Virus record (IMG/VR): IMGVR_UViG_3300030419_003016
Span: 4,141-39,347 of that record
DNA from: a virus
Length of the DNA stretch: 35,207 bases
Reading direction: 5' to 3' (one strand)
Below are positions 1-35,144 of the stretch, in pieces. The notes beneath the pieces are model-generated. The model saw only the letters and a list, made by a program, of their open reading frames with translations. It did not search any database and had not been told where the DNA came from. A program made the position numbers and the translations under genes. Each line of letters begins with the position of its first letter. Position 1 is the first letter of the stretch.

Positions 1-1674
1 GCTAATGCTTCTTCTGAAGATAATAATAACACATACACAGAAAGACCTTTAGGAGATGATGATCAAAAATTATTTATGCATAATGATCATAATGAGCAAA
101 CATCTTTTGGGATTACTGCTGATGGAGAAATGGAAGAGCTTATAGAATTTTTTGAAATGTATGAAAAAGAAAAAATGCCTTATGTAAATGTTTTTCATAG
201 AATACCTCCTGATAAAGAAAAATTGCAGACTATACATCAACAAGCTAAAGTAGAAATAGACAAAAAGTCAGCTGAGTTTCAGGTAGAGTTAAAAGAAAAA
301 GCAATGAAAATGCAGAATGCAGTTCAAGAAGGTAAGATGTTAAAAGATAGAATGGATTTAGAACTTCAAAAAGAACAAGAGTTAATTCAAAATCAATTAA
401 AATCTTATGAAATGGAATTACTTCATCAATTACAACAAGAAGCTTCTAGAGTAGCTAATGATGTAGTAACTAAAAAAGAATATGAAATACTTGTTAAAGA
501 TGAAAAGTTTAGGACTAGAATAGTAGATGCAATTCATTTTCATAAAAATCAAGTTAAATTATGCTGTGTGGTAGGTGATAAAACATTGTATACCAAGTAC
601 TTACCGCTTGAAGAATATCCTTTAATTCCTTTTCATTACAAATGGACAGGTACTCCATTTCCTATGAGTGCGGTATCACCTTTAATAGGTAAGCAAAGGG
701 AAATGAATAAAGCTCATCAGCTTATGATTCATAATGCATCTTTAGGTTCTAGCTTAAGATGGATGTATGAAGAAGGTAGTGTCGATACAGATTATTGGGA
801 GAAATATTCATCTGCTCCAGGAGCTTTGCTTCCTATGAGACAAGGATATAATCCTCCTACTCCTGTCCAACCATTTCAGTTAAATAATGCTTTCTTTAGT
901 TTGACTCAAACTGGGAAGCAGGATATGGAATATTTAGCTGGTATATTCTCATCTCAAATGGGAGATACTGGAGCTACTCAAGATATGCCATATAAAGGTA
1001 TGTTAGCTATGGATGAGTACGGTACAAGAAGAGTTAAGTATTGGATGAAGCATTGTATTGAACCTGCATTAAAACAATTGGGACAAGTAGTTAAAGATTA
1101 TTCTCAGGCAATATATACAGCTCATAAAGCATTTAGAATTGTGCAACCTTCTGGAATTTCAGGAGACAAGCAAGTTGAAATAAATGTTCCAATATATAAT
1201 GACTTAGGAGAAGCAATTGGCAAATTTAAAGATTATGCTGCAGCTAAATTTGATGTTAAAGTAGTTGCAGGTTCTACATTACCTATTAATAGATGGGCTT
1301 ATTTATCTGAATTAAAAGAATTAATGGGATTAGGTGTTGTAGATGATATAGCAGTTCTTGCTGAAACAGATATTAAAAACAAAGAATCTATAGTTAAGAG
1401 AAAGAGTTTATACTCTAAACTTCAAGGTGAGATTAAAAATAAAGAAGAAGAGATTAAAGAGAAAGCAGGAACTATAGAAACATTAACAAGACAGTTAGTT
1501 CAAGCTGGTATTAAAAATAAAGTTATGCAAGGAAGTGTTGAAGTTAGTAAAAAGGTTCAAGACTCTAAAGCATCTGTATATAAAGATGAACTTGAAAGCA
1601 TAGCTCAAATGAAACACTACAGAAAAGAAGAAGAAAAAAGACAGCAAGAACGAAATAATGAAAATAAAGATTAG
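1..1674 (+). CDS. Portal protein, 5' end outside window
   Basis: The frame is open from base 1, so the ATG at base 76 is probably internal and the gene starts upstream. The portal forms the dodecameric DNA gate at one capsid vertex and the terminase docking site. The supporting segment lies at about nt 610-760: the chain reads EEYPLIPFHYKWTG, then a proline-rich turn, LIGKQREMNKAHQLMIHNAS, a pattern seen in podovirus portals in which a helix carrying QREMNK precedes the wing. The portion at about nt 220-500 is strongly charged and helical (coiled-coil-like), and the C-terminal 100 residues (nt 1370-1670) are again a charged coil. It is followed after 52 bases by the scaffold gene and then the capsid gene, the usual head-module order. 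Family assignment rests on sequence pattern plus position; no structural test was possible. Confidence 0.8.
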   Translation, partial: ANASSEDNNNTYTERPLGDDDQKLFMHNDHNEQTSFGITADGEMEELIEFFEMYEKEKMPYVNVFHRIPPDKEKLQTIHQQAKVEIDKKSAEFQVELKEKAMKMQNAVQEGKMLKDRMDLELQKEQELIQNQLKSYEMELLHQLQQEASRVANDVVTKKEYEILVKDEKFRTRIVDAIHFHKNQVKLCCVVGDKTLYTKYLPLEEYPLIPFHYKWTGTPFPMSAVSPLIGKQREMNKAHQLMIHNASLGSSLRWMYEEGSVDTDYWEKYSSAPGALLPMRQGYNPPTPVQPFQLNNAFFSLTQTGKQDMEYLAGIFSSQMGDTGATQDMPYKGMLAMDEYGTRRVKYWMKHCIEPALKQLGQVVKDYSQAIYTAHKAFRIVQPSGISGDKQVEINVPIYNDLGEAIGKFKDYAAAKFDVKVVAGSTLPINRWAYLSELKELMGLGVVDDIAVLAETDIKNKESIVKRKSLYSKLQGEIKNKEEEIKEKAGTIETLTRQLVQAGIKNKVMQGSVEVSKKVQDSKASVYKDELESIAQMKHYRKEEEKRQQERNNENKD

Positions 1675-2655: not shown

Positions 2656-4209
2656 ATGTCAAGTTTTAATGGCGACTATGTTGACCTCTCGAAATTGGGT
2701 ACAAACGATGTTGCTGGGAATGGTCCTGGTCCTGGTACTGGTTTAGATACTGGTGATTTAAGGCGTAAGTACAATTTTGGCGACAGAGTTTCTGAGTTAG
2801 CAATAGCTCAAGACCCTTTCTTTCGTTTCGTTAATAAAGTAAGTAAAAAACCAACGGATGACCCTCAGTTTAAATTTACTGAAAAAAGAGGTTCATACCA
2901 TAAAAGATATGCCTATGTTGCAGCTGCAAAAAATAATGCAGGCGCATGGGTAACAACAAGTAATCTAGGCGGTCAAAAAGAAGTAGATAACCCAATCAGT
3001 TTACGTTTTGTAGCTGACTATAAAAATTCTGGTAATTTACAGAATATTTATGGACAATCGGGTACTCTTATACTACCAGGTCAATCAGGCACAATGCCTA
3101 AATTTTTCCTGCCTAATCAAATAATAAAAGTTCCTTGTGCTGCTTCAGCTGGTGGTACTGTTGCAGGCTATATGCTTGTAAAAGTAGATACTGTAACTGA
3201 ACATTCAGTAGGAGCTTCATATGTTGCTACGGCTGGTACATCAGGTAATGATGCAACAGTAACAACAACAAATAACCCAGATATGGTTCAAATAGATGGA
3301 ACAGTGGTTAAGATTCCTGAAACAGCAGCTAATTCTCAATACTTAACAGCACCTGCTGATTTTGACCAAGGTGTAGATATCTCTAGCTCATCAATAGCTG
3401 AAACTTTGGAACAAGATAGATGTTATGTTGTAGGTTCTGCTCATGATGAAGGAAGTGGATATCCAGAAACTTGGAAAGACCAACCATATAGTACAAACTA
3501 TGGTAGGACTCAAATCTGGAAAACTTCAATGGCAATGACAAATACTGCTCGTGCAACTTCACTTAAGTATGAAGGCAATGAATGGGCAAGAGTTTGGAAA
3601 GAAAAGCTAATTGAACATAAATGGGATATTGAAGCATCTTTAATATTTGGCTCTCAAAGCAATGACCATTATACAACACAAGGTGCAGCTGATTATATCT
3701 TAAACTATGGTAATCAATTTAGTTTAAATACAGCTACTAAAACAGCTGATGATTTCCTAGATGATATGTCAAACTACTTAGACCCAAGATATAATGGCAG
3801 TAATGCAACAATTTATTTTTGCGATACAGCTACTTATAATTGGATGCATAAACTAGGTGGTTATTTCAAAAATAATCTAGAAGTATCTTCTCAGTTTAGA
3901 GCAGATTTTGCTATGACTGGTAAGAAAAAAATCTTAGGTGTAGATATTACTTCATTCAGCACACCTTATGGTGATATGAATGTTGCTAGAAATATCCACT
4001 TAGATGGTACTCAGATTAAATTGCTAGGTATAAATATGAAGAATTGTGCTTATAGACCATTAGTTGGTAATGGTTTAAATAGGGACACTTCAGTCTACGT
4101 TGGTGTGCAAACACTTGAAAACTCTGGGGTCGACAGAAGAGTAGATTTAATCTTAACAGAAGCTGGGATGGAATGGTCAATGCCTGAATCTCATGCTATC
4201 TGGTTATAA
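2656..4209 (+). CDS. Major capsid protein
   Basis: 517 residues, third in the head module after portal and scaffold, with a good AAGGAG site (2642-2647). The N-terminal 40 residues are Gly/Pro-rich and probably flexible. Residues about 45-95 (DPFFRFVNKVSKKPTDDPQF then a KRGSYHKRYAYV strand) look like the extended loop of an HK97-type fold. The C-terminal half has the order expected of a capsid axial domain: a helix with EHKWDIEASLIFGS, a loop, DDFLDDMSNYL, and ending in VQTLENSGVDRRVDLILTEA. The middle (residues 150-260) is Thr/Gly-rich and may be a surface insertion. The pattern is closest to the large environmental-phage capsid groups such as SU10/DUF5309-like proteins, but this sub-family call is a guess; the capsid role is well supported by context. 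Confidence 0.82.
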   Translation: MSSFNGDYVDLSKLGTNDVAGNGPGPGTGLDTGDLRRKYNFGDRVSELAIAQDPFFRFVNKVSKKPTDDPQFKFTEKRGSYHKRYAYVAAAKNNAGAWVTTSNLGGQKEVDNPISLRFVADYKNSGNLQNIYGQSGTLILPGQSGTMPKFFLPNQIIKVPCAASAGGTVAGYMLVKVDTVTEHSVGASYVATAGTSGNDATVTTTNNPDMVQIDGTVVKIPETAANSQYLTAPADFDQGVDISSSSIAETLEQDRCYVVGSAHDEGSGYPETWKDQPYSTNYGRTQIWKTSMAMTNTARATSLKYEGNEWARVWKEKLIEHKWDIEASLIFGSQSNDHYTTQGAADYILNYGNQFSLNTATKTADDFLDDMSNYLDPRYNGSNATIYFCDTATYNWMHKLGGYFKNNLEVSSQFRADFAMTGKKKILGVDITSFSTPYGDMNVARNIHLDGTQIKLLGINMKNCAYRPLVGNGLNRDTSVYVGVQTLENSGVDRRVDLILTEAGMEWSMPESHAIWL

Positions 4210-13189: not shown

Positions 13190-16100
13190 ATGGGAAGAAA
13201 GATATGGAGATTATCTAAATTTGAAGGAGGATTAAATTCATATACCGACCCTAAGGATATAAAAGCTAGTGAATTTGCAGACTTAGTAGATGTAGATGTT
13301 TCTAAGATTGGAGTAATAAGGCCTATAGGAGGTCCAGTGCCTGATGTAAACTTTAGAGGAATGGATAGCAGTCCTGTTACATTAGAATTAGCATCTGGTA
13401 TAATGCCTGGAAATGGATTATATGGATATTCTTCTGATGTAACTTATTCTATTAGAGGGACATGGGCTTCTTGGGCACATAGCTTTAGTCTGAATGATGA
13501 ATTTTTAGGTGGGTCACAAAGTACTGCTACTTTCGGTATAAAAACTCTTTTATGGGGAACTACAAACGCACAATGGGCTGGTAATAATGGAGGGCATGGA
13601 GATGCAACAGATGCAACTAATTATCGGGTAAGACTTACAGTGGGTGGAGTCCCTATAACAAATTATATCTCTGTATTTAATGGAGCTGCAGCTGCTTATA
13701 TTACTGACCAAAATTGGCTTGGCTTAGCTAATGACCCTTTAACATCAGCTAATAACAAACTTCATTATTCATCTCAGGATGCTACAGTAGGAGGGGACTG
13801 GAGTGAATTATTTCCTTTTGCCCCAAACCCTCCTTATGGAACAGGTGTAATACATCAAGTTTGCAATAAATGGCCTCCTACTGGATTTGACCCATTTACT
13901 CCATGGGGTGCAAACGATGGTATGGAAGGCTGTCCTCCTATGTATTCACCAGGATGGGCTTTCTGGGGACATGGCGAGGCTGGATATAATACTAATTTAA
14001 ATGACCCAAATCTTCCATTAGATGCTCGATATAATGCTAGCGGTGATGTTATAGGAACTAATAGTATTAGAAGCAATAAAGGTACGATAGGTTTTTACCA
14101 TTGGGCAGGATATGAAGAAGACACTAATCACGAAGGCGGAAATCCTCCTTCAGTAAATTTTTCAAGAGGGTATACTCGAATATATAATCCTTACTTAGTT
14201 CCTGAAGGAGATGAGGGTGTTCCTCATGGCCAAAATTACAAAAAGGCTCGGTTGTCATTTTTAGGGGTTTTATGTAATGAAATAAATGCATATGCAGGAA
14301 CATCAGAATTAAATTATAAAGATAAATTTAATGCTAAGTTTGTTAACGAAAGAACAGGAGGAAGAACTTATACTGACTACCAAAACGCAAGTACATATGA
14401 ACCTTTGGATGATATAGTTATTAGTAGTTGGAGCTCTTCAGATATAGGTGGAAATATTGGGTTTGATTTTCTAGGAGGAACTTTTCAACCCTATCCTCTA
14501 ACCTCTTCTCATGTCAGAGGTCCTATAGGAGTTGTTGGAAATGACCCAGGAGGTCCTGATAATAATTCAGCTGTAGGTTTGATAGTTGATGATTATTTAG
14601 TTGCTGATGCTGACCAAAATGGTAATGGAGCTGCTGTTATAACTGGAGATACTTCCGTTGTAGCAGGAACTGCATCAACTGCACAACATCAGCAATTAGT
14701 TGTAATAAGAGGCAACCCTCAATCTTCATATACTTTAACAGTTAGAATGATGGCAGGATTGAAAGGATATCAATTTATTGACAACCATGACTTTGACTGG
14801 GGACAACCTTATGTTATTATGGATGAGCAAGAAATTAATTTTGATACAAATATGGATGTTATAGATTCGCTTGTACTTGCCATAGAAAATCATGACGTTG
14901 TAGGCGATGTAGACTGGGCTTTAGCTACATACAGCAGAGAAGCATTTAATACATACCTTGAAGACTTAGGAGACAACAATCCATTTACTCCAGATAACGG
15001 TTTATATGAATGGGATTATGATGAATTTGAACCAGCCTTTTTAGTTATCGTATCTCCTTATGGAGGTGAAGCAGGAGAGTTTGGGGTATATACACAAGCT
15101 AGTCCTGTTTTTAGAGAATTTACAACTGGTCAAAATACTGAAGACGAGAATTTAGCTTTTATTCATATGACAAATAATCCAATAAATGACTCGTATTTAT
15201 TAAAATACTACCAATTAGGTTTTAAGTTATATAGCAAACAATCTGATACATGGTTAGATGATTTTTCTGTGAGTAGTAATGGAAGTGGTAGTAATTCAGG
15301 GAGTAACACTAATTATAATGAGGTATTTCCTTGGTTTAAATTTTTCACTACTGAAAACCATACTGATGAGGATATTACAATAAATTTCGGATATCTTGGA
15401 GGTCACAATGACCCTAGATTAAGTAATCCTGTTTTTTGGAATGAAGGTAATTCTTTAAGGATAGCAGAATCTAATTTTATATTATTAAAAGGATTGAGAG
15501 AAGTAATTAGAGACGCGGAGATAGAAGATGATACTGTAGAATATAATTTGCAAGAACCTAGAAGAATGGTAGAAGAAAATCCTAATATGTGGGTAGGGTG
15601 GTTAGACCTACAAAAGCAATTTTTAAATGCTGCACAAACTGAATATGTCTGGGCGAATCAAAATCCTGGTCAGAGCAGTCTACAAACGTTTGGACATTTT
15701 ATAACAAAAGCAGATAGAAAATGGAGATGGAGTATTAATTACGAAGATTCATGTGAGGGAATACCTGGATTAGTTAATGCAACTAGTGTGCCTGTAAATT
15801 CAATAGGTACAAGTGGAGCACCTCATTATGATGATACTAAAGTAAAGTATGATGACAGCACTTATACTCATCCAGGAAATACTGTAGATAACTGGGGAGA
15901 AGAATCTTGCTCTATGCAGTTTTACATGTATAAAGGAACTTATTCTGAAGAAGAAATTGCTGCAGGAGAAGGAGGACTTGATTGGAGTGGTTCTATAAAA
16001 GTATATGCTGCAGCCTTATACCACGATAATCAAGAATCATTACCAGGTCATTTTTTTAGTCAAAATCTAGTATCTGCTAATAATTATTTTGGAGCTCCTG

Positions 16101-17329
16101 AAGAAGGAAATACTTTAAAGTTACAAGTTCTTTTTAGACCTAGTACAGCATACAAGCGTTGTTTTGACGACCCTAGAGTTGTAGGTATAAAATTATATTA
16201 TACTCATTCAGAAGAAGCATATGAAAATTTATGGGAACTAGCTACATTTCATTTTGAGGAAGGATTTATAAGTCCTACTCTATATAGAACTTTAGATAAT
16301 GATTATGGAAATGAAGGAGTATATCGGTGGGGTCCAGTGTCAAGTGCAAGTGATATAAGTCCTCATGCTTTTTTAGATACTGATACATTGACTGTTTTAA
16401 ATGGAAGTGTAAGTACAATTGAATTTTTAGAGATGCCTAAAAGTAGTAGATATGAAGATAATAATTTATTTGCACCCACTAATAACACTATAAGTGTTCA
16501 GTATAGAGCTGTAACTCAAGCTGGAAGAAGAACGTTTGTAGGCAATTTAAGAATATGGGACGGTAATAAGTATATATATAAAAATGATAGTATGATATGT
16601 AGTCCTGTTAATAAGCTAGATACTTTTCCATACCCTGATAATGTTTTAGATTTTGATGTGAATGATGGAGATGAAATTGTCGCTTTAGATTCTTTAGGAG
16701 ATATAGTAATACAATTTAAACAAAGAACGGTTTATTTTATGAATATATCTACTGGTGTTGATTCAGATTTTTATATAGAAGAAAAACACAGATGGAAAGG
16801 AATTAGACATAGAAATCATAAATGCAGGACTAGTGATGGTGTTTTTTGGTATAATGCTAATGGAGCGTGGTTGTATGATGGGAGTGAAGTAAAAGATATT
16901 TTTAACTCTGAAGATGGGGATGAAAAGCAAAAAAGAATGTCTAATTCTGATTGGGACTACTATGCTGGAGATACAAGTATTTGTGGTTATCATCCAGAAT
17001 CACAACAAATAATTATTATAAAAAATTCTACTTATTTAAATAAAGATGATGATTTACCAACAGCATCTAGTGATACAAGAGGGCAGACTACAGAAGGAGA
17101 CTTTTTAGTTTATGATGTGAAGACAGATGCATGGTCAAAAGGTAAAAAGAAATTTTATTTAAGATATAGCAATCTTGATTCTAATGGACATGTAATGCCT
17201 ATGCCAAATAAAAATCAGACTACTAGTATGACTAATGTTATAAATTGGGGAGATAGTGGTCAGTTTGAATACTTATGTGAAGAAAATGCTATTAACAATC
17301 AAGTTGGCAATGAAGAGAGTTCAAGCTAA
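13190..17329 (+). CDS. Tail nozzle protein (T7 gp12 / P22 gp10-like) with large insertion
   Basis: 1379 residues. The N-terminus KIWRLSKFEGGLNSYTDPKD followed by an ADLVDVDVS-x-x-G-x-x-RP-x-G run is the signature start of tail nozzle (tail tubular B) proteins. The C-terminal third looks like the nozzle propeller: VQYRAVTQAGRRTFVGNL, DEIVALDSLGDIVIQFKQRT (about residue 1160), then GVFWYNANGAWLYDG (1217-1231). T7 gp12 is about 790 residues, so roughly 600 extra residues lie in the middle (about 100-1000), rich in Gly, Asn, Asp and aromatics. They could be an inserted adhesin or receptor-binding region. The nozzle closes the tail tube and opens for ejection. Followed by a one-base-overlap gene. 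Confidence 0.68.
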   Translation: MGRKIWRLSKFEGGLNSYTDPKDIKASEFADLVDVDVSKIGVIRPIGGPVPDVNFRGMDSSPVTLELASGIMPGNGLYGYSSDVTYSIRGTWASWAHSFSLNDEFLGGSQSTATFGIKTLLWGTTNAQWAGNNGGHGDATDATNYRVRLTVGGVPITNYISVFNGAAAAYITDQNWLGLANDPLTSANNKLHYSSQDATVGGDWSELFPFAPNPPYGTGVIHQVCNKWPPTGFDPFTPWGANDGMEGCPPMYSPGWAFWGHGEAGYNTNLNDPNLPLDARYNASGDVIGTNSIRSNKGTIGFYHWAGYEEDTNHEGGNPPSVNFSRGYTRIYNPYLVPEGDEGVPHGQNYKKARLSFLGVLCNEINAYAGTSELNYKDKFNAKFVNERTGGRTYTDYQNASTYEPLDDIVISSWSSSDIGGNIGFDFLGGTFQPYPLTSSHVRGPIGVVGNDPGGPDNNSAVGLIVDDYLVADADQNGNGAAVITGDTSVVAGTASTAQHQQLVVIRGNPQSSYTLTVRMMAGLKGYQFIDNHDFDWGQPYVIMDEQEINFDTNMDVIDSLVLAIENHDVVGDVDWALATYSREAFNTYLEDLGDNNPFTPDNGLYEWDYDEFEPAFLVIVSPYGGEAGEFGVYTQASPVFREFTTGQNTEDENLAFIHMTNNPINDSYLLKYYQLGFKLYSKQSDTWLDDFSVSSNGSGSNSGSNTNYNEVFPWFKFFTTENHTDEDITINFGYLGGHNDPRLSNPVFWNEGNSLRIAESNFILLKGLREVIRDAEIEDDTVEYNLQEPRRMVEENPNMWVGWLDLQKQFLNAAQTEYVWANQNPGQSSLQTFGHFITKADRKWRWSINYEDSCEGIPGLVNATSVPVNSIGTSGAPHYDDTKVKYDDSTYTHPGNTVDNWGEESCSMQFYMYKGTYSEEEIAAGEGGLDWSGSIKVYAAALYHDNQESLPGHFFSQNLVSANNYFGAPEEGNTLKLQVLFRPSTAYKRCFDDPRVVGIKLYYTHSEEAYENLWELATFHFEEGFISPTLYRTLDNDYGNEGVYRWGPVSSASDISPHAFLDTDTLTVLNGSVSTIEFLEMPKSSRYEDNNLFAPTNNTISVQYRAVTQAGRRTFVGNLRIWDGNKYIYKNDSMICSPVNKLDTFPYPDNVLDFDVNDGDEIVALDSLGDIVIQFKQRTVYFMNISTGVDSDFYIEEKHRWKGIRHRNHKCRTSDGVFWYNANGAWLYDGSEVKDIFNSEDGDEKQKRMSNSDWDYYAGDTSICGYHPESQQIIIIKNSTYLNKDDDLPTASSDTRGQTTEGDFLVYDVKTDAWSKGKKKFYLRYSNLDSNGHVMPMPNKNQTTSMTNVINWGDSGQFEYLCEENAINNQVGNEESSS

Positions 17330-23720: not shown

Positions 23721-26700
23721 ATGGCTGAAGAATTGTCTAGTACCTATTACGATGAGTTAGAAAAACAAAGATTAGAAGAAGAAGAAGCTAAGCGTAAAAG
23801 AGAAGAAGAGAAACAAGCTTTGCTGCAATCTTTAGACTCTATACAAAATGACCCGTATAGAACTAGAGAAGAAGCTGCACAATATATAAAATCTACAGAG
23901 TTATTACAAGGTCAAGATACCTACCAAGGATTAGATACAGATAAAGTTTTATCTTTAGCTAGAAGTTTAGAAGACCCTGATTACTTAGAACCTTACACCC
24001 CTACATACAGAGACGTAGGTAATTACCAATATAGAACACAAACTGCATTAATGTTTACACATCATATGCCTGCATTTGCTGCATTAACTTTTGGTACTGA
24101 GTCTGAAATAGGACAAGAGATTGCTAGAAATAACCCAGAGTTCGACAAATCTATGCTGCAAAGAGAGAGTGAAGCTAATGCTGTTAAAGAGCAAACTATG
24201 AAAGCATTAATGTTAAGTAATAATCCTACTTGGACTCGTGATATGGTTGATGCTGAATTTGAAAGATATAAAGCAGACCAAACATACGCCACAAGCAAAG
24301 CTTTAGAAATACTAAGAGAAACAAGAAGAAAAACTGATGAAATTATAGCTAATGACCCTAAAGCTCGTGCTATACAAGAATGGATTCAAAGAGATGGATT
24401 TATAGAAGAAGGTCAGTATTTTAAATACTTAGCTAATCTATATGAAACAATCGCTCCGTCACTAGCAGCAGCATGGGTTGGTGGTAAAACAGGCGGTGCT
24501 ATAGCCGCTGGTATTGCTGGTGTTGCTGGTCAATTAGGTCCTCAAGCTGCAACTCCAGAAGAACTTGTTACCGTACCTACATCATACATTATTGGTTACG
24601 GTGTTGGTGCTGGTGTAACATCAGGATTACTAGAGGGTGGCTCTTATTTATATGAACAATGGGATGCATTAACTCAATCAGAAGAAATAGACCAAAAAGA
24701 ACTTCAAGAAGATATGTCAAGAGCTAGAGAATTTTATGCAGATAAAATTAAAAAGGCTGACAAATCAGGGACTGGCAATATATTTGATGAACAATTAAAT
24801 ATGACTATGAACCTTGATAGTTATATGAAGATGTATCAAGATAATAATTTTCACTTTACTGAAGATAATAGAATAATAAGATATGGACTCACAGATGAAG
24901 AAGCATTAGAAGCTGTAGCGGGAGGAGCATATATGTATGCAGGTGCATCTTCTATAGTTGAGAATTTTAGTCAACTTACTCGTATATTAAAAGCATTTCC
25001 TCGTAGTCAAAAAGCATTTGAAAAGTTAAATAAGTTTAATTATTTTGATAAAATAAGTAGAGCGTTTGCTAAGCAAGCAAGATATATTCCAAGAACTAAT
25101 GTTAAAAACAGAACTAAAGCATGGATGTTGTCTTCTGGGTTTGACAGACTATTAGAGATGGGTGGTGAAAGTTTAGAAGAAGTTACTCAAGGATTTTTAC
25201 AATCAGTTACTGCAGCTACACAAGATACAGAGGGTGGCTACATAGTACAAGCATTAGGGGGTGGTTTAGAGAGCGTTCCTAATAGACCTCAAGATTTTGA
25301 ACATGGTGGCTGGAAACAAATAAGAGACGAAGCTATTGGTGGTTTTATAGGTTCTGGTCCTCAAACTTTAATAGCTGGCGGAGGAGAGGTTACTGGTCTT
25401 TCAGCTAGGTTAGAGAACTTGCGTGCAAAAAGGAGCTTACTTAAGAGAGAAGGTGAGGAAATAGTATTAGAAAAGAATGATGATGGTACTGTAGAAATGA
25501 GGCTTTTTAAAAGTACTAAAAAAGAAGATGATAAGAAAATGACTATTGAATCTATTGACTTACCTGTAGATTCTAAAGGTCAAGGAATAGAAACAACATT
25601 TAGTACTTGGAATGAAGCTGTGGAAGCTAAGCGTCTTTATCAAGCAGAGCAAGATATAAAAGAAAGAATGAAAAAAGCTTGGGATTTCAGGGCTACTATA
25701 GGAGGTAAGCCTGAAATAGTAGAGAATGATGATAAGACATTTTCTATCCAGGTTAAAGATGCTGAAGGGGAAGTTTTATTTACTGATGAAAAGAAATTCA
25801 AAAAGAATAATTACAAAACAAGACGTGAATTAAGAAAAATAAAAAAATCCATGGATGTAATTGAAAGAGATTTTGACCAATATGGATTTGATGAAAAGTC
25901 TGCAGAAGATGTCCCTGTTATAAAACAGTATGAAGAAGAAAAGGTACAAAAGAAAAGAGACCAACTTGAAAAATTTGTTAAGAGAGTAGAGGAACAATCA
26001 AAGGTTGATACTAGCATGACTATTGCAGCGTTCATGGGAGAGACTGATACTGTACAAGAAGAAACTGACAAAGATGAAACCAAAAAAGAATCCTACAGTG
26101 AAGCTTTAGATAGAGGCGTTCTTTCAAATCCTGATGTTATTATAGAAGAGGTTTCAAAAGATATAGATAATGTGATTGCTGAAGACAGAGGTCACAAACC
26201 TGAAGATATATTAGAAATGTTTGATGATACATTTGGACCTGATGAAGATGCAGGTGCATTAAACATACCTGATTTTAAAGAAAAAAGAAAAGAATTAGAA
26301 GAAGCTTTAAAACAAAGAGACGAAAAACCCGAAGGACCTCCTGATACTTCAGTCCCTGTGTCAGAAGAAACAGGTATTCCTACGGAAGAACAAGGGCCTC
26401 CTACTGAACAAGGCCCTCCAACAGAACAGGGTCCGCCAACAGAGGAAGGTCCTCCTGTAAGTGTAGGTCCTACTAAGAAAACTAAAAAGACTAAAAAGAG
26501 TGATGAAGAACCTCAAATGAATATATTTGATGCTCCACCTGAAGCACCTAAAGGAAAAGCAAAAGAAACCTCTGAACTTACTGATGATGAATTAAAGGCT
26601 AAAATATCATCAATTAAGAAGGAAATATCTAAACACGAGGAGGGGTCTGCATTTAGAAAAATCCACGAAAAAAGGCTAGAATTAGTCGAAAAAGAGGTAG

Positions 26701-29700
26701 AGGATAGAAAAAAGAAACCTTTGAAAAAGCAAATTGTTAGTGTTGGTAAGCGTACTATGCAGAAGGGCACTAAAACTGAGAAAGAGATAAGGGAATGGAA
26801 ACCAACAATATCTAAGAAAGAATCTAAGCTTGTAAGCCCTGATGCAAAAAAGGAAGGATTTGTTCAACATGTTTTAAATAAAATGTCTGAACGTCCTGAA
26901 GGTACTGAGTTTCATATATCTGAGATACTAGATGAATTAGTCCCTAATAGTAGAGGCAAGAATGCTACCTCTCAATCTAAAAAACTTAGACATAAAATAA
27001 CTCAACAAGTAATTAGAAGACTGCAGTCTATGGAAGCCGAAGGTATTCTTGAATATACTGCACCTGATACTAATAGGAATATTTGGAGATTATCTCCTAT
27101 TAAAAAACAAAAACGTTCTGGCTTTATGGATAAGGATAGTAATGTAAAAAAATTAAATAGAGTAGAGCATGTTGTGAATAGACTTATGAAAACCTTTAAT
27201 AATAAAATTAAGGTAGTTAGTCTAACTGAACTAGATAATGTACTGAAATATATAGACATGCATGAAGTAGATGAAACTCCTGGCTGGTATGATTCTAATA
27301 CTGATACTTTATACTTAAACTTTCTTGCAGACAATCTAGATGTTGATACTCCATTTCATGAATTCTCTCACCCCTTCATATCTATATTAGCTAAAGATAG
27401 CCCTAAATTATTTAACAGTTTATTAAAGCAAGCTGAGCAACAGTTTCCATATCTAAGAGAGCAAATATTATCTGATTATAGTCAGGACATAGAGAGAGGT
27501 AAGCTTAATGAGCAAGGTGTAAACGAGGAAATTATAGCTCATGCTATAGATACTTTAGCTGGTAAAAGTTATCAACAGTTAGAAAATTCTGAAGGTCCTA
27601 TTAAGAAATTCTGGAACACATTAAAAAGATTCTTTAATTATGTGATGGATAAGTTAGGTATTAAAAAGAGAGATGATGTCTTTTCTTTATTAACGCCTTC
27701 TACTAAGTTAAGAGAAGTGGTTGATTTCATAATAAACAATGAAGGTAAATATAAAATAGATATAAGTGATTTCTCTTTTCATACTGAGTTGCTTGAAATG
27801 GCTGACGAAACTATGGAGAATGATAGTGTAAATTCTGTTGTTATGGAAGAAGTCGATAGTTTGGTAGAAGCTGTTGTGGAAAACGAGTTTAATAATGAAG
27901 TAAAAGAAATGGTGGAGGAGATAACTTTATTACTACCACAATTTACAGAATCTAATGTTACTGCTAAATTAAAGAAATATTTACAGAAGAGATATAAAAT
28001 TAAAAAAAGTGCTTACAAAGGTAAGGCGATAGAAAAGCAAGCTAAGAAAGCTTTAGGTATAACGGGTAATAAAAAGCTGTCAAAAAAGGCTGAGTATTTA
28101 GCTGACCTAAAACAAAGTATAAAAAACAGTCTTCCACCTACATTTCCAATGCCTAATATAGATAAAGAAATAGATAAGTTAAGTGATTTTTATTTAGAGT
28201 TTTCTGGTGAATTAGAGTTTAGATATAAACTAATAGAAACTGATTTAATAAATAGACAAAATGAAAGCATTCAAATAAGAGGTTTAGAAAAAAGACCAGG
28301 TTTAACTAAAGATGAAAAACTTAATATTAAGAAATTTAAAATTGCTCAAGGATGGACAGAGGAGTTTCTAACTGATTATAAAAAAAATAATGGAAAAGAA
28401 TTATCAATAAAAGGTTCTGATATAATATCTGAATACATAGCGTATAATGAAAAAGATTTGAATTTAAAAACAGTTACAAGTACTAAATACTCTACAAGTT
28501 TGAGTTATGACCAACTAAATAAAAACTTATCAACATCAGATAATATATTTAGAGTTTTGTTTTTAGGCAATAGAATATATGGTGCTGGACATAGCTTTCC
28601 AGAATTAAAAGCAGGAGCAGGCGGAAGCCCTTTAGGATGGTATACAGTGTATCAGGAGCAAGATGGAAAAGTTATACTGCATGAATTTCAATCTGATGTT
28701 ATTCCTGAAACTATTGCTGCTATTAAAAGAATAAAACAAAAACATTCAGGTACTAAAGAATATATTGAAAAGGCATATGAAGGGCCTCATCAAATTATAA
28801 CTGAATGGTACAAAGGATTAGAGAAAGGTTTTATAGCAGAAAATATACGTAACGAAAAGCATCATTCTAGAGATAAAAATTTAATTAGTGGTCTAGGCTC
28901 AGGCGAAAATAAAGTTCATTTTACTATAAAAATAAACAATCAAAAACTTATAGATTTATTAGGAGAAAATAATGTTTCATTTACACAGTCAGGTGTAATG
29001 ACTGAAAGTTTAATGAGAACAGTTCACTCAGGAAATTATGTTAGCCATTTACTTTTACAAATAGCAAAAAAAATTGAGAAAATAAATAAGCTTCATCTTG
29101 AAGCAGGTCATCTAAAATTAAAGATAAGTCATAATGATGTTATAGAATTGTTAGATGATTTGATAATTAATTTTGCAGAAAACATGGAATTTGATTACAG
29201 TCTAGATAAGAGGCCAAATACAGTTTTATATAAAGAACTTGATGCTGCTAGGTCAACCTTAGGACATTACGAAAAGAACTTGGAAAATAAAAAATATTAT
29301 GATTTTCCTAGCTATAAAATGGCAAGACATTTCTTATCTATAATGACTAATTATGGTGATGCTATGAAGTCTTCACAAGAAAGACTTGACTTATTAGAAG
29401 TTTATGAATTTTTCACAGAGGAAAGTCCTAAAAAAGATTCTAGCGGTGTTTGGTATGTTCCTCCTATTCGTAAAGTTTTTAAAGATAATAAATTTTTAAA
29501 TGATTTTCCTAACAAAGAAAACTCTGTATATAAGTATGTAACTTCAGTAATTAATGAACAAGAGGTTTATGCAGATGTACCTCATATGGTATATCAAGGG
29601 CATGAAATACAGAATGCTTTTTCGAAACTTTTAACATATAGTCCAATGTTAAATCCCCATTATTATATAGGGAAAAATGGTAAGTTTTTAAAAGGTACTC

Positions 29701-32700
29701 GTTCTATTAGGGATTATATGGCAGACGACCCTAGCATGATGGAAGGTGACATAATAGATATGAGCTTTCATCCTTCAAACTGGAAATGGAATACTCATAA
29801 AAAAATTGCTGGATTTAAAGCTAAGGTAAATAATTATTATTCCGATTATAATAAAGATAGAGCAGAGTTAGGTAAGCTAAAATTAATAATAAAATCAATA
29901 ACAGGAAGTGGTAAGGAAGCACTTGGAGATAAAGCTGCTTATTCTAATTATCGAAATATCGTAGAGAAAATGGTTAAATATTATGTTAATGAAACATTTA
30001 GACTTACTACATCTAGAATTTCATTATTTGATTTAGTAATGACAGATGAAACTTTTAGTATTGATGAAGCAGACATAGTGGCAAAACATCCTTCTTATAA
30101 AAATGCATTAAATGAATTAACTGTAGTAGGTAAGAATTGGTTTCAGAAATTAATAATGCATGGTATTAAACATTCTCATTCTTCTTTTCCAAATCAAGAT
30201 ATTTATTTAAATACTGGTACTGCTATAACTTCTATCGAAAAAAATGATGTAGCTGCTCCAGTTTATAACAGTCTAGAAGAAGCTCAGTGGAGAAGGCTTT
30301 CAGAAATGCTAAGAGGAGAAGCTGGTTTAAACCTAATAGCTCCTTATGTGCAACCTATATATGATGAGTTAAGTAAAAACAAAGAATTAGCATGGTTATC
30401 TTATGAAGATTTTGAAATGTTTGTTAAAGATATAGCAGATAGAAGAGCTGATAGAAGTTCACATTATGGATATAGATATTTTAAGGCTGAAAATATTGGA
30501 GATAAAGCACCAACTCTTAAAAATCATCAGTTAATTTATGAAGGAGTTCTAGACTACTTACTTAATAAGGTAGAAGATGCAGATTTTAAATTTCAATTAT
30601 CTATAAACAAATTTAAATCACCTGTACCAAGTGGTTTTGAAATTCAAATAAGAGGTGTAAGTGATGAAGATAACGTAAGTGATTATATGAAAAGTAGATT
30701 GAGTTATTCAGCACGAACAGCTATAAATCTCATGAACAACAACTTAATGGGAGTATTGATGAGGGATAATAGGTTTGATAATTATCTTGATTTTTTTAAT
30801 AAATCTAAAAAAGAACAACAAACTATTATAAATGAAATGTTTTTAAAAGAAATAGAATTAGCTTTATTTGCTGAAGATGTTGGAGACCCATCATTGGTAA
30901 CTTATAAACAAGAGCAAGGTATAGATACAGACTCTGAAATTATGCTTCTAATAAAGTATGTCAAAGACAACAAGTTCTTTCCGAGAATTTTACCTGTCTC
31001 TCCTGGTGCTTTTTATAATGATATGAAAAAGATTAATAAAAGTGCTGAGTATGGAGTTGAAATTAAGCTATCTTATCCAGAAGAATCTAATGTTCCTTTA
31101 TGGAAAGTGGAAATTAAAGATGAAAAGAAATTAATACCTCTTAAGTTTAGAAGGCTGTCCAAGAAAAAACAACAAGCTAAAGACAATCCTACATCTATAG
31201 AGGGGTTAGAAAGAAAAACATCTCAAGTATTAGCTGACTTAATACCATTAGATGAGCTAGATGTTAGGAGTGAGCAGTATAGAATTATAAAAGATTTCTT
31301 TGATACTACTTGGAGAAACATGCAGAGAATTACTGGTAAAGATAAGGTAGATATATACGATTATAAGCAACTAATGAATGGTGTCATACATGAGAATCTA
31401 GTACCAGCATTTGAAGAGTGGTGGGAATCTAGATTTAAAGATAGTATGGATGCACCTTCTAGGGTAAGAGCTATAGGTAAGGAGAGCTATAAGTTTATAG
31501 ATAAGCTTCCTCAAGAAGAATTATTAAGAGATTATGAAGATTGGGCAGAAGGCTCTGCTGTAAAACAAATGCTTGACAAAGGTGTTACTGACGAAAGAAT
31601 ACTTTCATTAAACGACTTGCTTTATTTTAAATCTTTAAATAAATCAATTACCATAGAGCAACTAGGAAGATTAGCTTTACTTGCTAACCATAAAAAAAGA
31701 ACTCCAGGATATGAAGCTTGGAAGAACTTTGTATTAAAATTTGAATTAAATATGAATACAAACATAACGCCTAAACAAGATAGAGAGCTGCATAAATATT
31801 ATAATAGAGTTAAATCTATGGTCAGAACTAATAGGGATGGTGCAGGAAGTACAAATCAAAGAGAAAACTTTGTAGTAATTACAACTAGCCAGAAAAGAAA
31901 AGATGGAACATGGTACCTTAAAGACTTAACAGTAAAAAGAAAAGGTGCAATAAATGATGCTACAGGTAATAAAAATAATGAGTTTGAAAAAGAAACTTTA
32001 TTTGAAAGGCTGGTGACTAAAGGTGAATTTACTTGGATATCTGGTGGAGATGTATTAGATAAAAAGTTTGCAGGCCTTAAGCACAGTAAAGGACCTAAGC
32101 CAACACCTACATTTAAGAAGGTTGAAAAATATGGCTTCTTAAAAGGAGAAGAGCTTCAAAGATTAGAACAATATGTAAGAAAAATGGGTTATACTATAGC
32201 TTTTTCAAGAGGAGATTCAAGTAAACTTGCTTTAGTTAGGTTTAAAAATAGTAAAAATGAATTAAAAAATAAAGCTCACGCAGAGAGAGGTAATGCGTTA
32301 GCTTACTGGAATAGAGAATTTAAAAATATTGCAAGAAATCAAAACGAATTAGATGTACTCGAGAAAGAATTACCAGAGCTATTAGCAGGAACAGACGAAG
32401 ATAGAGCTGCAAATATATCTGTACATCAAGCTATCAAAAAAGTATTCCCTAGATATTTATTAGATGTTAAAGGGGCTAGCAATGTATTTAAAAGATTAAA
32501 AATTCCATTTACACCTGTTACTATAAGTGATACTATGAGTAAAATAAAAATACACAGATTTGACCCTAATGAAGTTGAGTTTGGAGTTATAGCAGAAGCA
32601 GACGGAGATGGAGCTGTTATAGATGGACACGATTGGTTTTCTCCAATTGTAATGATTGATGGCAAAGCACATTATATAGGCGATGGTAATTCAATTACAT

Positions 32701-35144
32701 CTCAAGAATTCTTTGATGCGGTTCACGAACACCACGGATTACGCCTCACTACAGCTAAATTAAAATCTGTTATATATGCAGTTGATGGAGATAATGCATT
32801 AGCTATTAAACACGAACATGTTTTGCCTACTAGAAATTTTGTAATAAGAAATAAACACACTAAGGAAATAATATATTCTGTAGATTCTCATAGAAGCATT
32901 TACCAGGGAGATTTTCGAGAACAAGTCGCAGGAGAGGGAGAGCTGAACAAGATAGACATGCTGGTTACTGATGATGAAGTTAAAGTAGGAGATTACTTTA
33001 AAGGTGGAAACAGTATAGAGGTAAGTGGAGAGTCTTTAGGTGTAATAAAATATGATGAAGAAAGTAAAAGTACTGTTAAGCATATAATGCAATGGTATAA
33101 TTATGTTCAAGACCCTGAAGTTTTAAAACAATTTATTAGAAAATATGGAGAAATATTAGGCAATGGTGTAACGGATGCATTAACTAAAGCAGTAGACAAG
33201 AAGAGTTTTACTGAAGGTCTTATAGCAGACATGGTATCTCCTGATAAAATAAAAGCTTTTATGAAAAAATATTCAGGTAAAGAGAACGAAGGTTTTGCAT
33301 TAGCAGCATTAGAGCTTGCTAAGCTTGGAGCAGGGATGCATCCATCGTTAGAATCAGTTCTTGATGTCTTAATACAAACTCAAGTTATGTTACCTGCTTT
33401 AAATTTATCTAAATCTCCTGGCTCTATATATGATATATCCATGGACATGACTGGTTCATTAACCAGCTCTTTAGATGGTAAAGATTCTGAGAGTGAGGTT
33501 GCTTTAGGTATTCAAAACTCTGAACCTGTAAAAAAATTAGTAGCTAAAGCTAAGGATAAACCTATTAATGAACTAAAAATGTGGGAAATAAATGAATGGT
33601 TGAAGGATAACCCTGTATATGTTATGGTGACTAGGTCTCCTGTAGCTTATAAAGGTGGTGCTTATATGGCTAGAGTTAAAAGATTACATGGAAGACGTTC
33701 TTTAGCAGACTTGAATCCTTTAGATGTGAAAGTTAAATTAGAAGGTGATGGCGATGGAGATGAAGTTCATATAGAATTTCTTGATAAAGAAACAACTGAA
33801 ATTTACAAAGATTCTATGAAAGATATTGAATATAAGTCATTAGACTTAAATAGATTTGGAACTAAAGATATTAAGAAAATTACTTCTACTAAATCTAGAT
33901 TACATACTATTACATCTCTTATAGCAGGCTCAACTGCTATAGCAGAGATAGCTAATGTGACAGCTATATATGGTATGATGTATAAAACTTTCAATGGCTT
34001 TGAATGGAATGGTAAAAAAATTACATTAAAAAAACCTACAGATAAAATTAAGTTTGGTAATAGAGCTATATATGACGATAAGGTTAATGGATGGGAAGGC
34101 ACAGTAGAAGAGTATTTAAGAATATGGCTTCAAGCTGCAGTTGATAATAATGAATTTGGATTACTATATGAATGGGGTTATGATGAGACAGGACAACAGG
34201 GTTTATTTAAAGAATTGTTTGATGGCCCTATTGATAGTGGTGCATGGAAGTTTATGACTGAAATAATTAATCATTACAAAACTGTATTAAGTATAAAAAG
34301 AGGTTATAATTACTTGGATGGTAAGTATAGATTATCAGATACAATTGAAAAAAGTAAAGAGATATACGATGCTGCATTAGATAAAACTAGCTTTAATTTT
34401 ATTGACGGAGGTAAGGTTATTTTTAAAGTTGATATAAAAAATAGACAGCTTACTCCTTATGAAATAATAGCAGTTTCTCCTTACAGAGTATGGCAAAAAC
34501 TTTCTAAAGATTTAAATATGATAGGGTTTAATGGAAGCCCTTATATACTACATGGCAATGCACATAAAAATGCACATAAACATGCGTTTAATAGACTAAA
34601 AGACAATCTAGATAGTATATGGCAGCAAGCTAGAGATATAGATTTAGAGAATGGAACATGGGATGGAAAAGATGCAAAGGAATTTACAAAAGCTGAGATA
34701 CAAAAAGGTATAAATTATACTAAGAGGATGGGTACTAAATTCTACAAAATGTTAAAAGATTTAAAAGCATCAGGTCCTCAGACTGTAGATAGAAATGAAG
34801 ATTTTATAGTATGGAAGATGGAATCAGATAAGGAATTTAAATCTATGTCTAAATTAGCTAGAGTATCCGCTACACTTTCTTTCTTACAGGGATACTTAAG
34901 ATTATCAGATAGTTTAGAAGCAAATGCTATAAAGAAAGGTACTAAACAGCCTAGAATATTTCCTCCTGTAAGTAAAAGTCTTAGTGAAATAAGCTTACTG
35001 GACCCGTCTATTATAGAAATATATTTTAAAGATTATAATTTTTATTTAAATTCGAGACATGAAAACACACTAAAAAAGGTTATTAGTAGTGGAAAAGAGT
35101 ATACATGGCTTGCTAAATCAGCATTAAGGACATGTGGGGGATAA
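23721..35144 (+). CDS. Giant multidomain virion protein with zincin and two-barrel RNA polymerase motifs
   Basis: 3807 residues in one intact frame. In order: a charged coil (1-60); Gly/Ala-rich hydrophobic segments (about 245-311, with AIAAGIAGVAGQLG) and further Gly-rich parts to about 560; acidic/basic coils (560-880); a Pro repeat (890-913); a winged-helix-like region (about 1045-1127); a zincin site HEFSH (1213-1217) with E1269-E1270 as third-ligand candidates; an EIQSD-like motif, HEFQSD (1654-1659); long unassigned helical regions; and polymerase motifs (about 2950-3500). The mix resembles phage 'polyvalent' proteins and the virion RNA polymerase of crAss-like phages. Placed last in the ejection-gene block, it is probably packaged and injected to transcribe early genes. 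AGAGG precedes the ATG. The overall homologue is unknown; domain calls vary in strength. Confidence 0.7.
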   Translation: MAEELSSTYYDELEKQRLEEEEAKRKREEEKQALLQSLDSIQNDPYRTREEAAQYIKSTELLQGQDTYQGLDTDKVLSLARSLEDPDYLEPYTPTYRDVGNYQYRTQTALMFTHHMPAFAALTFGTESEIGQEIARNNPEFDKSMLQRESEANAVKEQTMKALMLSNNPTWTRDMVDAEFERYKADQTYATSKALEILRETRRKTDEIIANDPKARAIQEWIQRDGFIEEGQYFKYLANLYETIAPSLAAAWVGGKTGGAIAAGIAGVAGQLGPQAATPEELVTVPTSYIIGYGVGAGVTSGLLEGGSYLYEQWDALTQSEEIDQKELQEDMSRAREFYADKIKKADKSGTGNIFDEQLNMTMNLDSYMKMYQDNNFHFTEDNRIIRYGLTDEEALEAVAGGAYMYAGASSIVENFSQLTRILKAFPRSQKAFEKLNKFNYFDKISRAFAKQARYIPRTNVKNRTKAWMLSSGFDRLLEMGGESLEEVTQGFLQSVTAATQDTEGGYIVQALGGGLESVPNRPQDFEHGGWKQIRDEAIGGFIGSGPQTLIAGGGEVTGLSARLENLRAKRSLLKREGEEIVLEKNDDGTVEMRLFKSTKKEDDKKMTIESIDLPVDSKGQGIETTFSTWNEAVEAKRLYQAEQDIKERMKKAWDFRATIGGKPEIVENDDKTFSIQVKDAEGEVLFTDEKKFKKNNYKTRRELRKIKKSMDVIERDFDQYGFDEKSAEDVPVIKQYEEEKVQKKRDQLEKFVKRVEEQSKVDTSMTIAAFMGETDTVQEETDKDETKKESYSEALDRGVLSNPDVIIEEVSKDIDNVIAEDRGHKPEDILEMFDDTFGPDEDAGALNIPDFKEKRKELEEALKQRDEKPEGPPDTSVPVSEETGIPTEEQGPPTEQGPPTEQGPPTEEGPPVSVGPTKKTKKTKKSDEEPQMNIFDAPPEAPKGKAKETSELTDDELKAKISSIKKEISKHEEGSAFRKIHEKRLELVEKEVEDRKKKPLKKQIVSVGKRTMQKGTKTEKEIREWKPTISKKESKLVSPDAKKEGFVQHVLNKMSERPEGTEFHISEILDELVPNSRGKNATSQSKKLRHKITQQVIRRLQSMEAEGILEYTAPDTNRNIWRLSPIKKQKRSGFMDKDSNVKKLNRVEHVVNRLMKTFNNKIKVVSLTELDNVLKYIDMHEVDETPGWYDSNTDTLYLNFLADNLDVDTPFHEFSHPFISILAKDSPKLFNSLLKQAEQQFPYLREQILSDYSQDIERGKLNEQGVNEEIIAHAIDTLAGKSYQQLENSEGPIKKFWNTLKRFFNYVMDKLGIKKRDDVFSLLTPSTKLREVVDFIINNEGKYKIDISDFSFHTELLEMADETMENDSVNSVVMEEVDSLVEAVVENEFNNEVKEMVEEITLLLPQFTESNVTAKLKKYLQKRYKIKKSAYKGKAIEKQAKKALGITGNKKLSKKAEYLADLKQSIKNSLPPTFPMPNIDKEIDKLSDFYLEFSGELEFRYKLIETDLINRQNESIQIRGLEKRPGLTKDEKLNIKKFKIAQGWTEEFLTDYKKNNGKELSIKGSDIISEYIAYNEKDLNLKTVTSTKYSTSLSYDQLNKNLSTSDNIFRVLFLGNRIYGAGHSFPELKAGAGGSPLGWYTVYQEQDGKVILHEFQSDVIPETIAAIKRIKQKHSGTKEYIEKAYEGPHQIITEWYKGLEKGFIAENIRNEKHHSRDKNLISGLGSGENKVHFTIKINNQKLIDLLGENNVSFTQSGVMTESLMRTVHSGNYVSHLLLQIAKKIEKINKLHLEAGHLKLKISHNDVIELLDDLIINFAENMEFDYSLDKRPNTVLYKELDAARSTLGHYEKNLENKKYYDFPSYKMARHFLSIMTNYGDAMKSSQERLDLLEVYEFFTEESPKKDSSGVWYVPPIRKVFKDNKFLNDFPNKENSVYKYVTSVINEQEVYADVPHMVYQGHEIQNAFSKLLTYSPMLNPHYYIGKNGKFLKGTRSIRDYMADDPSMMEGDIIDMSFHPSNWKWNTHKKIAGFKAKVNNYYSDYNKDRAELGKLKLIIKSITGSGKEALGDKAAYSNYRNIVEKMVKYYVNETFRLTTSRISLFDLVMTDETFSIDEADIVAKHPSYKNALNELTVVGKNWFQKLIMHGIKHSHSSFPNQDIYLNTGTAITSIEKNDVAAPVYNSLEEAQWRRLSEMLRGEAGLNLIAPYVQPIYDELSKNKELAWLSYEDFEMFVKDIADRRADRSSHYGYRYFKAENIGDKAPTLKNHQLIYEGVLDYLLNKVEDADFKFQLSINKFKSPVPSGFEIQIRGVSDEDNVSDYMKSRLSYSARTAINLMNNNLMGVLMRDNRFDNYLDFFNKSKKEQQTIINEMFLKEIELALFAEDVGDPSLVTYKQEQGIDTDSEIMLLIKYVKDNKFFPRILPVSPGAFYNDMKKINKSAEYGVEIKLSYPEESNVPLWKVEIKDEKKLIPLKFRRLSKKKQQAKDNPTSIEGLERKTSQVLADLIPLDELDVRSEQYRIIKDFFDTTWRNMQRITGKDKVDIYDYKQLMNGVIHENLVPAFEEWWESRFKDSMDAPSRVRAIGKESYKFIDKLPQEELLRDYEDWAEGSAVKQMLDKGVTDERILSLNDLLYFKSLNKSITIEQLGRLALLANHKKRTPGYEAWKNFVLKFELNMNTNITPKQDRELHKYYNRVKSMVRTNRDGAGSTNQRENFVVITTSQKRKDGTWYLKDLTVKRKGAINDATGNKNNEFEKETLFERLVTKGEFTWISGGDVLDKKFAGLKHSKGPKPTPTFKKVEKYGFLKGEELQRLEQYVRKMGYTIAFSRGDSSKLALVRFKNSKNELKNKAHAERGNALAYWNREFKNIARNQNELDVLEKELPELLAGTDEDRAANISVHQAIKKVFPRYLLDVKGASNVFKRLKIPFTPVTISDTMSKIKIHRFDPNEVEFGVIAEADGDGAVIDGHDWFSPIVMIDGKAHYIGDGNSITSQEFFDAVHEHHGLRLTTAKLKSVIYAVDGDNALAIKHEHVLPTRNFVIRNKHTKEIIYSVDSHRSIYQGDFREQVAGEGELNKIDMLVTDDEVKVGDYFKGGNSIEVSGESLGVIKYDEESKSTVKHIMQWYNYVQDPEVLKQFIRKYGEILGNGVTDALTKAVDKKSFTEGLIADMVSPDKIKAFMKKYSGKENEGFALAALELAKLGAGMHPSLESVLDVLIQTQVMLPALNLSKSPGSIYDISMDMTGSLTSSLDGKDSESEVALGIQNSEPVKKLVAKAKDKPINELKMWEINEWLKDNPVYVMVTRSPVAYKGGAYMARVKRLHGRRSLADLNPLDVKVKLEGDGDGDEVHIEFLDKETTEIYKDSMKDIEYKSLDLNRFGTKDIKKITSTKSRLHTITSLIAGSTAIAEIANVTAIYGMMYKTFNGFEWNGKKITLKKPTDKIKFGNRAIYDDKVNGWEGTVEEYLRIWLQAAVDNNEFGLLYEWGYDETGQQGLFKELFDGPIDSGAWKFMTEIINHYKTVLSIKRGYNYLDGKYRLSDTIEKSKEIYDAALDKTSFNFIDGGKVIFKVDIKNRQLTPYEIIAVSPYRVWQKLSKDLNMIGFNGSPYILHGNAHKNAHKHAFNRLKDNLDSIWQQARDIDLENGTWDGKDAKEFTKAEIQKGINYTKRMGTKFYKMLKDLKASGPQTVDRNEDFIVWKMESDKEFKSMSKLARVSATLSFLQGYLRLSDSLEANAIKKGTKQPRIFPPVSKSLSEISLLDPSIIEIYFKDYNFYLNSRHENTLKKVISSGKEYTWLAKSALRTCGG
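26388..26459 (+). repeat. 18-base tandem repeat encoding EQGPPT
   Basis: Four units of six codons (26388, 26406, 26424, 26442) encode EQGPPT three times and then EEGPPV, residues 890-913 of the giant protein. Synonymous codons differ between units, so the peptide is kept while the DNA drifts. It is a flexible linker between the N-terminal part and the winged-helix/zincin part. Confidence 0.85.
26850..27100 (+). other. Winged-helix-like region inside the giant protein
   Basis: Residues about 1045-1127: FVQHVLNKMSERPEGTEFHI, SEILDELVPN, then KLRHKITQQVIRRLQSMEAE followed by GILEYTAP and an NIWRL strand. The spacing of three helices and a two-strand wing is that of a winged helix-turn-helix. 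It could bind DNA, for instance phage promoters or the genome end, for the polymerase portion. Confidence 0.5.
27240..27760 (+). other. Zincin metallopeptidase-like domain inside the giant protein
   Basis: HEFSH at residues 1213-1217 (nt 27357-27371) matches HExxH. It is preceded by the strand DTLYLN and followed about 50 residues later by NEEIIAHAI, where E1269 or E1270 could be the third zinc ligand as in gluzincins. Similar zincins occur in phage polyvalent proteins. It may process the giant protein itself or act on a host target. Confidence 0.62.
32570..34225 (+). other. Two-barrel RNA polymerase module inside the giant protein
   Basis: Motifs in order: ADGDGAVIDGHDWF (D2961 region, matching the DG-x-G-x-I start of a first barrel); GLRLTTAKLKSVIYAVD with K3013 and K3015 (compare QIR-x-x-G-x-KG-x-x-AVD of RNAi-type polymerases); VMVTRSPVAYKGG with R3305 and P3307; NPLDVKVKLEGDGDGDEVHI with D3343, D3345 and D3347 as the DxDGD magnesium site; AIAEIANVT (E3409, N3412); LQAAVDNNEFG (D3475). 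The order and spacing match the superfamily. The second conserved lysine of the first barrel is not identifiable with certainty. Confidence 0.72.

Follow-up and report, generated by a model that had tools for sequence, protein, structure and literature searches.

The C-terminal ~1100 residues of a 3807-aa giant protein encoded by an uncultured phage (IMG/VR record IMGVR_UViG_3300030419_003016) are predicted to form an RNA polymerase of the single-chain, two-barrel type represented by crAss gp66 and QDE-1. This identity is supported by a structure model and by sequence comparison, and it is preferred because fold, sequence profile and invariant residues all agree; that the protein synthesises RNA is inferred. 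The best explanation of the whole, to which we assign a probability of roughly 0.87, is that the C-terminal part is a two-barrel DNA-dependent RNA polymerase that is packed, ejected and used to transcribe early genes. Direct observation extends to the fold of the model, the invariant active-site residues, the homology to crAss polymerases and the position in the late operon; packaging, ejection, activity, the DNA template and promoter use are inferred.

The window (the whole stretch of DNA that was analysed, 35,207 nucleotides) begins at position 4141 of a record of 39,347 bases. The genes and regions that frame the polymerase are listed here by window position.

1..1674, + strand, portal protein gene, C-terminal part (phrog_156, E=6e-31)
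2656..4209, + strand, major capsid protein gene (phrog_1328, E=2.5e-11)
13190..17329, + strand, 1379-aa late protein, kept upstream of the polymerase gene in 5/5 relatives compared
23721..35144, + strand, unbroken ORF of the 3807-aa giant protein, final gene of the window's late (structural) block
27357..27371, + strand, HEFSH zinc-metallopeptidase-like motif, residues 1213-1217, upstream of the polymerase region
31788..35141, + strand, predicted two-barrel RNA polymerase region, residues 2690-3807 (AlphaFold2 pLDDT 86.8, pTM 0.85; Foldseek and VIA-align matches to 6vr4, RDR2, QDE-1, 8f72 and 8f5m)

The genes run in the order TerL, portal, scaffold, capsid, neck and tail genes, the 1379-aa protein and the giant gene, and a divergent module on the opposite strand carries primase/helicase and Sak4-like genes. 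The order from TerL through portal and major capsid protein to the giant protein is common to five relatives (records of 50-56 kb), in which giant-protein orthologues of 2345-3716 aa occupy the same location. In every relative compared, the polymerase region is fused to the giant protein inside the late structural block. Moreover, of 15 giant proteins sampled, 13 carry a HE-x-[SA]-H motif ahead of the polymerase. As the gene is grouped with capsid and tail genes, packaging into the virion is most likely; both packaging and injection rest on inference from operon position, synteny and homology, with no direct evidence. None of 15 records searched yielded DNA polymerase A.

Directly 3′ of the giant gene in 5/5 relatives is a protein of 1135-1212 aa of unknown family (20-30% identity). 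The window stops upstream of it; copies are found at L109:4221-7628 (G001), with equivalents in G003, G006, G015 and G019. The G001 copy has no PHROG match, and neither this downstream 1.1-1.2 kaa protein nor the N-terminal part of the giant protein gave a convincing match to other phi14:2 virion proteins. The G001 contig (54180 bases) ends between late genes whose homologues sit close together in the window, which suggests a circularly permuted, nearly complete record of ~54 kb.

Under the preferred explanation, the giant protein would be made late, become part of the virion and be ejected together with the DNA or before it. Its C-terminal polymerase, sitting behind ~2700 residues that include the zinc-metallopeptidase-like motif, would then start early-gene transcription, as in phi14:2 and P23-45. 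A search for promoter-like motifs in the intergenic DNA of five relatives found nothing exceeding shuffles.

In phi14:2, the injected polymerase transcribes early genes, according to the summary in PMC7886860. The phi14:2 polymerase was equated with locus tag gp077 of KC821624, which has 2180 aa and a DFDID motif. It is likewise a single chain with two barrels, with R-x-P, DxDxD and AN...VDN.K blocks in the same order; MS/MS proteomics led to its annotation as a structural protein, and its gene also lies at the distal end of the structural genes, adjoining another large protein. However, it is a 2180-aa protein, whereas the polymerase here is the C-terminal third of 3807 aa; it reads DFDID where the window family reads DxD[GH]D; and phi14:2 is a Crassvirales phage of ~100 kb, compared with records of ~50-56 kb here. 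In P23-45, a long-tailed Thermus phage, gp96 joins an RNA polymerase to the tail tape measure protein and is likewise a giant virion protein with a two-barrel RNAP, a metallopeptidase domain and a DFDGD motif (PMC10770324). The RNAP of gp96 is N-terminal, whereas that of the window protein is C-terminal, and gp96 is without a clamp, whereas the window model aligns past residue 1070 with RDR2, QDE-1 and P74 gp62. QDE-1 and RDR2 are single chains whose overall fold matches that of the model across 480-690 residues (Z 14-16), but they are eukaryotic and have no virion-protein fusion. The N4 virion RNA polymerase is also a giant virion protein, thought to begin early transcription. It has a T7-type catalytic domain, whereas Pfam gave no T7-type match in the window protein; PF00940 (T7-type RNAP) matched neither the giant protein nor 15 records, but the control search was also without a match. 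YonO of Bacillus phage SP-beta is a single-chain RNA polymerase distantly homologous to cellular RNAPs, reported in PMC5467207 as having no trigger-loop homology; unlike the window protein, it is not a giant virion fusion.

A genuine two-barrel RNAP could instead work only after its synthesis inside the infected cell, without entering the virion, as P23-45 gp64 does. We consider this unlikely, although it cannot be set aside while packaging lacks direct evidence. Some phages do encode non-virion two-barrel RNAPs (PMC10770324), and each record carries a single polymerase copy, a second having been sought in 23 records without success. On the other side, fusion to a giant protein within the late structural block is how the virion enzymes of phi14:2 and P23-45 are arranged, and gp64 is far smaller (solved chains of 593-595 residues, 8f72).

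The motifs on which a polymerase reading of the C-terminal region depends are as follows.

32745 (start), + strand, LTTAKLK, residues 3009-3015, seen in the translation
32763..32765, + strand, K3015, invariant lysine in the 37-sequence alignment
32808..32810, + strand, K3030, invariant lysine in the 37-sequence alignment
33633..33641, + strand, R-x-P motif, R3305-S-P3307, R and P invariant in 37/37
33714 (start), + strand, NPLDV, residues 3332-3336, seen in the translation
33747..33761, + strand, putative DxDGD catalytic metal-binding motif DGDGD, residues 3343-3347, D3343/D3345/D3347 invariant in 37/37
33948 (start), + strand, IAN, residues 3410-3412, frequent in the family but not invariant
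within the QAAVDNNEFGLL block, + strand, AVD, residues 3473-3475, with Q3471, A3472 and D3475 kept in 36/37

Relatives of this region were sought in IMG/VR. A first scan with the stretch 32400-34225 gave five relatives of 44-55% identity, and iterated short and long alignments led to 43 IMG/VR contigs related to the C-terminal ~1100 residues, plus one contig assigned by binning to a Flavobacteriales metagenome-assembled genome. The aligned proteins reach down to ~18-25% identity with the window protein. Across 37 sequences, K3015, K3030, R3305, P3307, D3343, D3345 and D3347 are invariant, whilst the second position of the DxDGD motif may be G, H, Y, N, S, Q, A or F and the fourth G or H. Several family searches used the pattern EGD[GY]DGD, which could by itself yield conserved aspartates. 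However, the conservation is not merely a product of selection, because at least 19 of the 37 aligned sequences lack that pattern and the first five relatives were recruited by patterns without the DxDGD motif. The pattern-free members read D-H-D-G-D, D-S-D-G-D, D-A-D-G-D, D-N-D-G-D, D-Q-D-G-D, D-F-D-G-D or D-H-D-H-D, aligned at the same place. A subclade (L076, L077, L079, L081, L085 and L088) has D-x-D-H-D, paralleling the DFDID/DFDVD of crAss polymerases. Among the 27 aligned family members extending to C3805 (window 35133-35135), 26 keep this cysteine, which is unexplained.

The first-pass annotation had placed R-x-P, NPLDV, DGDGD, IAN and AVD correctly. The alignment narrows what can be made of some of them. 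The lysine barrel had been located at LTTAKLK with K3013 and K3015 as its lysines; LTTAKLK is present and K3015 is invariant, but K3013 is kept in only 14/37 and the real pair is K3015/K3030. NPL, likened to the HPL of the beta-prime barrel, is present but only partly conserved: residue 3332 is N, H or S in the family, and some relatives have HPL or HPE, as in cellular polymerases. The downstream pair fares unevenly, the AVD block being nearly constant and IAN not.

Judged from the alignment, the invariant residues are what a working catalytic site, and not a decayed domain, should show, catalysis itself being inferred. The protein might still be a polymerase-derived virion component that has kept the fold, lost catalysis and become an ejection or packaging scaffold, as activity has not been shown. 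Three Asp, two Lys and R-x-P remaining invariant at such low identity would be unexpected after loss of catalysis, and we regard this as very improbable.

The elements assigned from the structure model, in which model residue n is protein residue n+2689, are given below.

32757..33050, + strand, putative DPBB-B (lysine barrel), residues 3013-3110, beta-rich at model 324-421, holding K3015 and K3030 (37/37)
33414..33776, + strand, predicted DPBB-A (beta-prime-type catalytic barrel), residues 3232-3352, from E. coli beta-prime superposition and phrog_2987 in relatives
33888..33989, + strand, probable bridge helix, a 34-residue helix (3390-3423, model helix 701-734) with AIAEIAN, collinear with crAss 'GVGITAN'
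34131..34166, + strand, QAAVDNNEFGLL block, probable N-terminal trigger-loop helix, Q, A and D in 36/37, aligned with crAss 'AFVDNAK'

The AlphaFold2 model covers 1118 residues and was built with the 37-sequence alignment; with only 6 close relatives pLDDT was 42.5, and the 37 diverse sequences were needed. The best Foldseek match was 6vr4, the virion RNA polymerase of phi14:2 (E=1.2e-10), followed by RDR2 and P23-45-type RNAPs, and RNA polymerases made up 50/50 of the best matches listed. The TM-score between the model and 6vr4 is moderate (0.46 by query length). VIA-align gave Z 15.0 to 6vr4 (730 residues, 4.6 A), 15.8 to RDR2 (7.9 A) and 14-15 to QDE-1, the best rows being ties, and the alignments to 6vr4 and QDE-1 cover both barrel regions. 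The top two BFVD matches are viral proteins without a name (30-33% identity), with crAss-like proteins ranking lower. The absence of a barrel fold from such a model, which would have refuted the polymerase proposal, was not seen in these AlphaFold and Foldseek results; the predicted fold is that of a two-barrel polymerase.

Model residues 539-682 superpose on E. coli beta-prime 344-492 (7mko_D, VIA-align), 129 residues fitting at 2.3 A, and D3343-D3347 therefore come to lie only a few residues away from E. coli D460-D464. K3015 and K3030 sit on model strands 324-333 and 336-345, upstream of the catalytic barrel. The beta-prime chain alignments extend to about model 783-796, opposite E. coli 930-932 in the trigger loop (VIA-align); because they reach the trigger loop, the QAAVD block is probably a trigger-loop helix and the preceding 34-residue helix the bridge helix. 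In a working enzyme, D3343/D3345/D3347 of one double-psi barrel would hold the catalytic magnesium, the other double-psi barrel would contribute K3015 and K3030, and the long helix and the QAAVD block would act as bridge helix and trigger loop.

Evidence independent of the structure model came from hhalign. The family profile aligned with that of ten crAss polymerases in three collinear segments, namely a KR block, the R-x-P/DxDxD barrel and the AN...VDN.K block. The P-values of the individual segments are modest (0.46, 0.022 and 0.058); the collinear score was 84.8, against at most 39.6 in 150 block-shuffled crAss alignments and 16.4 when reversed. In addition, L019 and L024, two of the relatives, match phrog_2987 ('RNA polymerase beta subunit') at the catalytic barrel (E 0.006-0.008). 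Whole-protein Pfam and PHROG scans found no polymerase in the giant protein, nor did phmmer and profile searches of PDB sequences. At the level of sequence, the family profile resembles that of crAss RNAPs, without this showing the family to be closer to crAss than to P23-45 enzymes.

The 3807-aa protein has no D-x-D-x-D other than DGDGD at 3343-3347. The motif alone is only suggestive, because 5000 shuffles of the giant protein yielded D-x-DGD in 345 cases and, in 13, D-x-DGD preceded by an R-x-P at a distance of 20-50 residues; it is conservation and fold that settle the reality of the observation. A chance match in an unrelated giant structural protein, for which those 13 shuffles are the only support, is contradicted by the fold match, the shuffle-controlled profile match and the family-wide invariance, and is scarcely credible. 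The two-barrel RNA polymerase proposed by the first-pass annotation is thus backed by fold, hhalign profile match and invariant residues.

Despite its crAss-like polymerase, the phage probably lies outside Crassvirales, since neither portal nor capsid has a crassvirus match (by tblastn only). Against 50,697 phage records, the portal matched only one Aeromonas phage, and the capsid only Pseudomonas phages and one Desulfofustis phage. In the same collection, tblastn with seven family members (the window and six relatives) found no relative, whereas the positive control, phi14:2 gp66, matched 139 records. The sole relative from a genome collection is the Flavobacteriales-binned contig (L062, NHFY01000017.1). 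This binning hints at a Bacteroidota host, as for crassviruses, though bins are a weak guide where phage contigs are concerned.

Virion polymerases with two barrels in a single chain were already known, as was their fusion to giant virion proteins. What is new is a large, diverse polymerase family in uncultured phages of ~50-55 kb that Pfam and PHROGs do not name as polymerase; some members may already figure in the survey cited in PMC10770324 (Supplementary Data 4). We propose, tentatively and at less than even odds, that these phages are an unrecognised, diverse lineage of ~50-55 kb, with capsid and portal unrelated to those of crassviruses and one giant ejected protein that joins a metallopeptidase to a complete two-barrel RNA polymerase. 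If true, one molecule would handle both genome entry and first transcription. The family shows RNA polymerases of crAss type reaching well beyond Crassvirales, into at least 43 uncultured phage contigs. Moreover, with G or H at the fourth motif position and a variable second position, the family broadens the sequence record of two-barrel RNA polymerases, which bears on the origin of cellular and RNAi polymerases, and it is a source of new single-chain enzymes for biochemistry.
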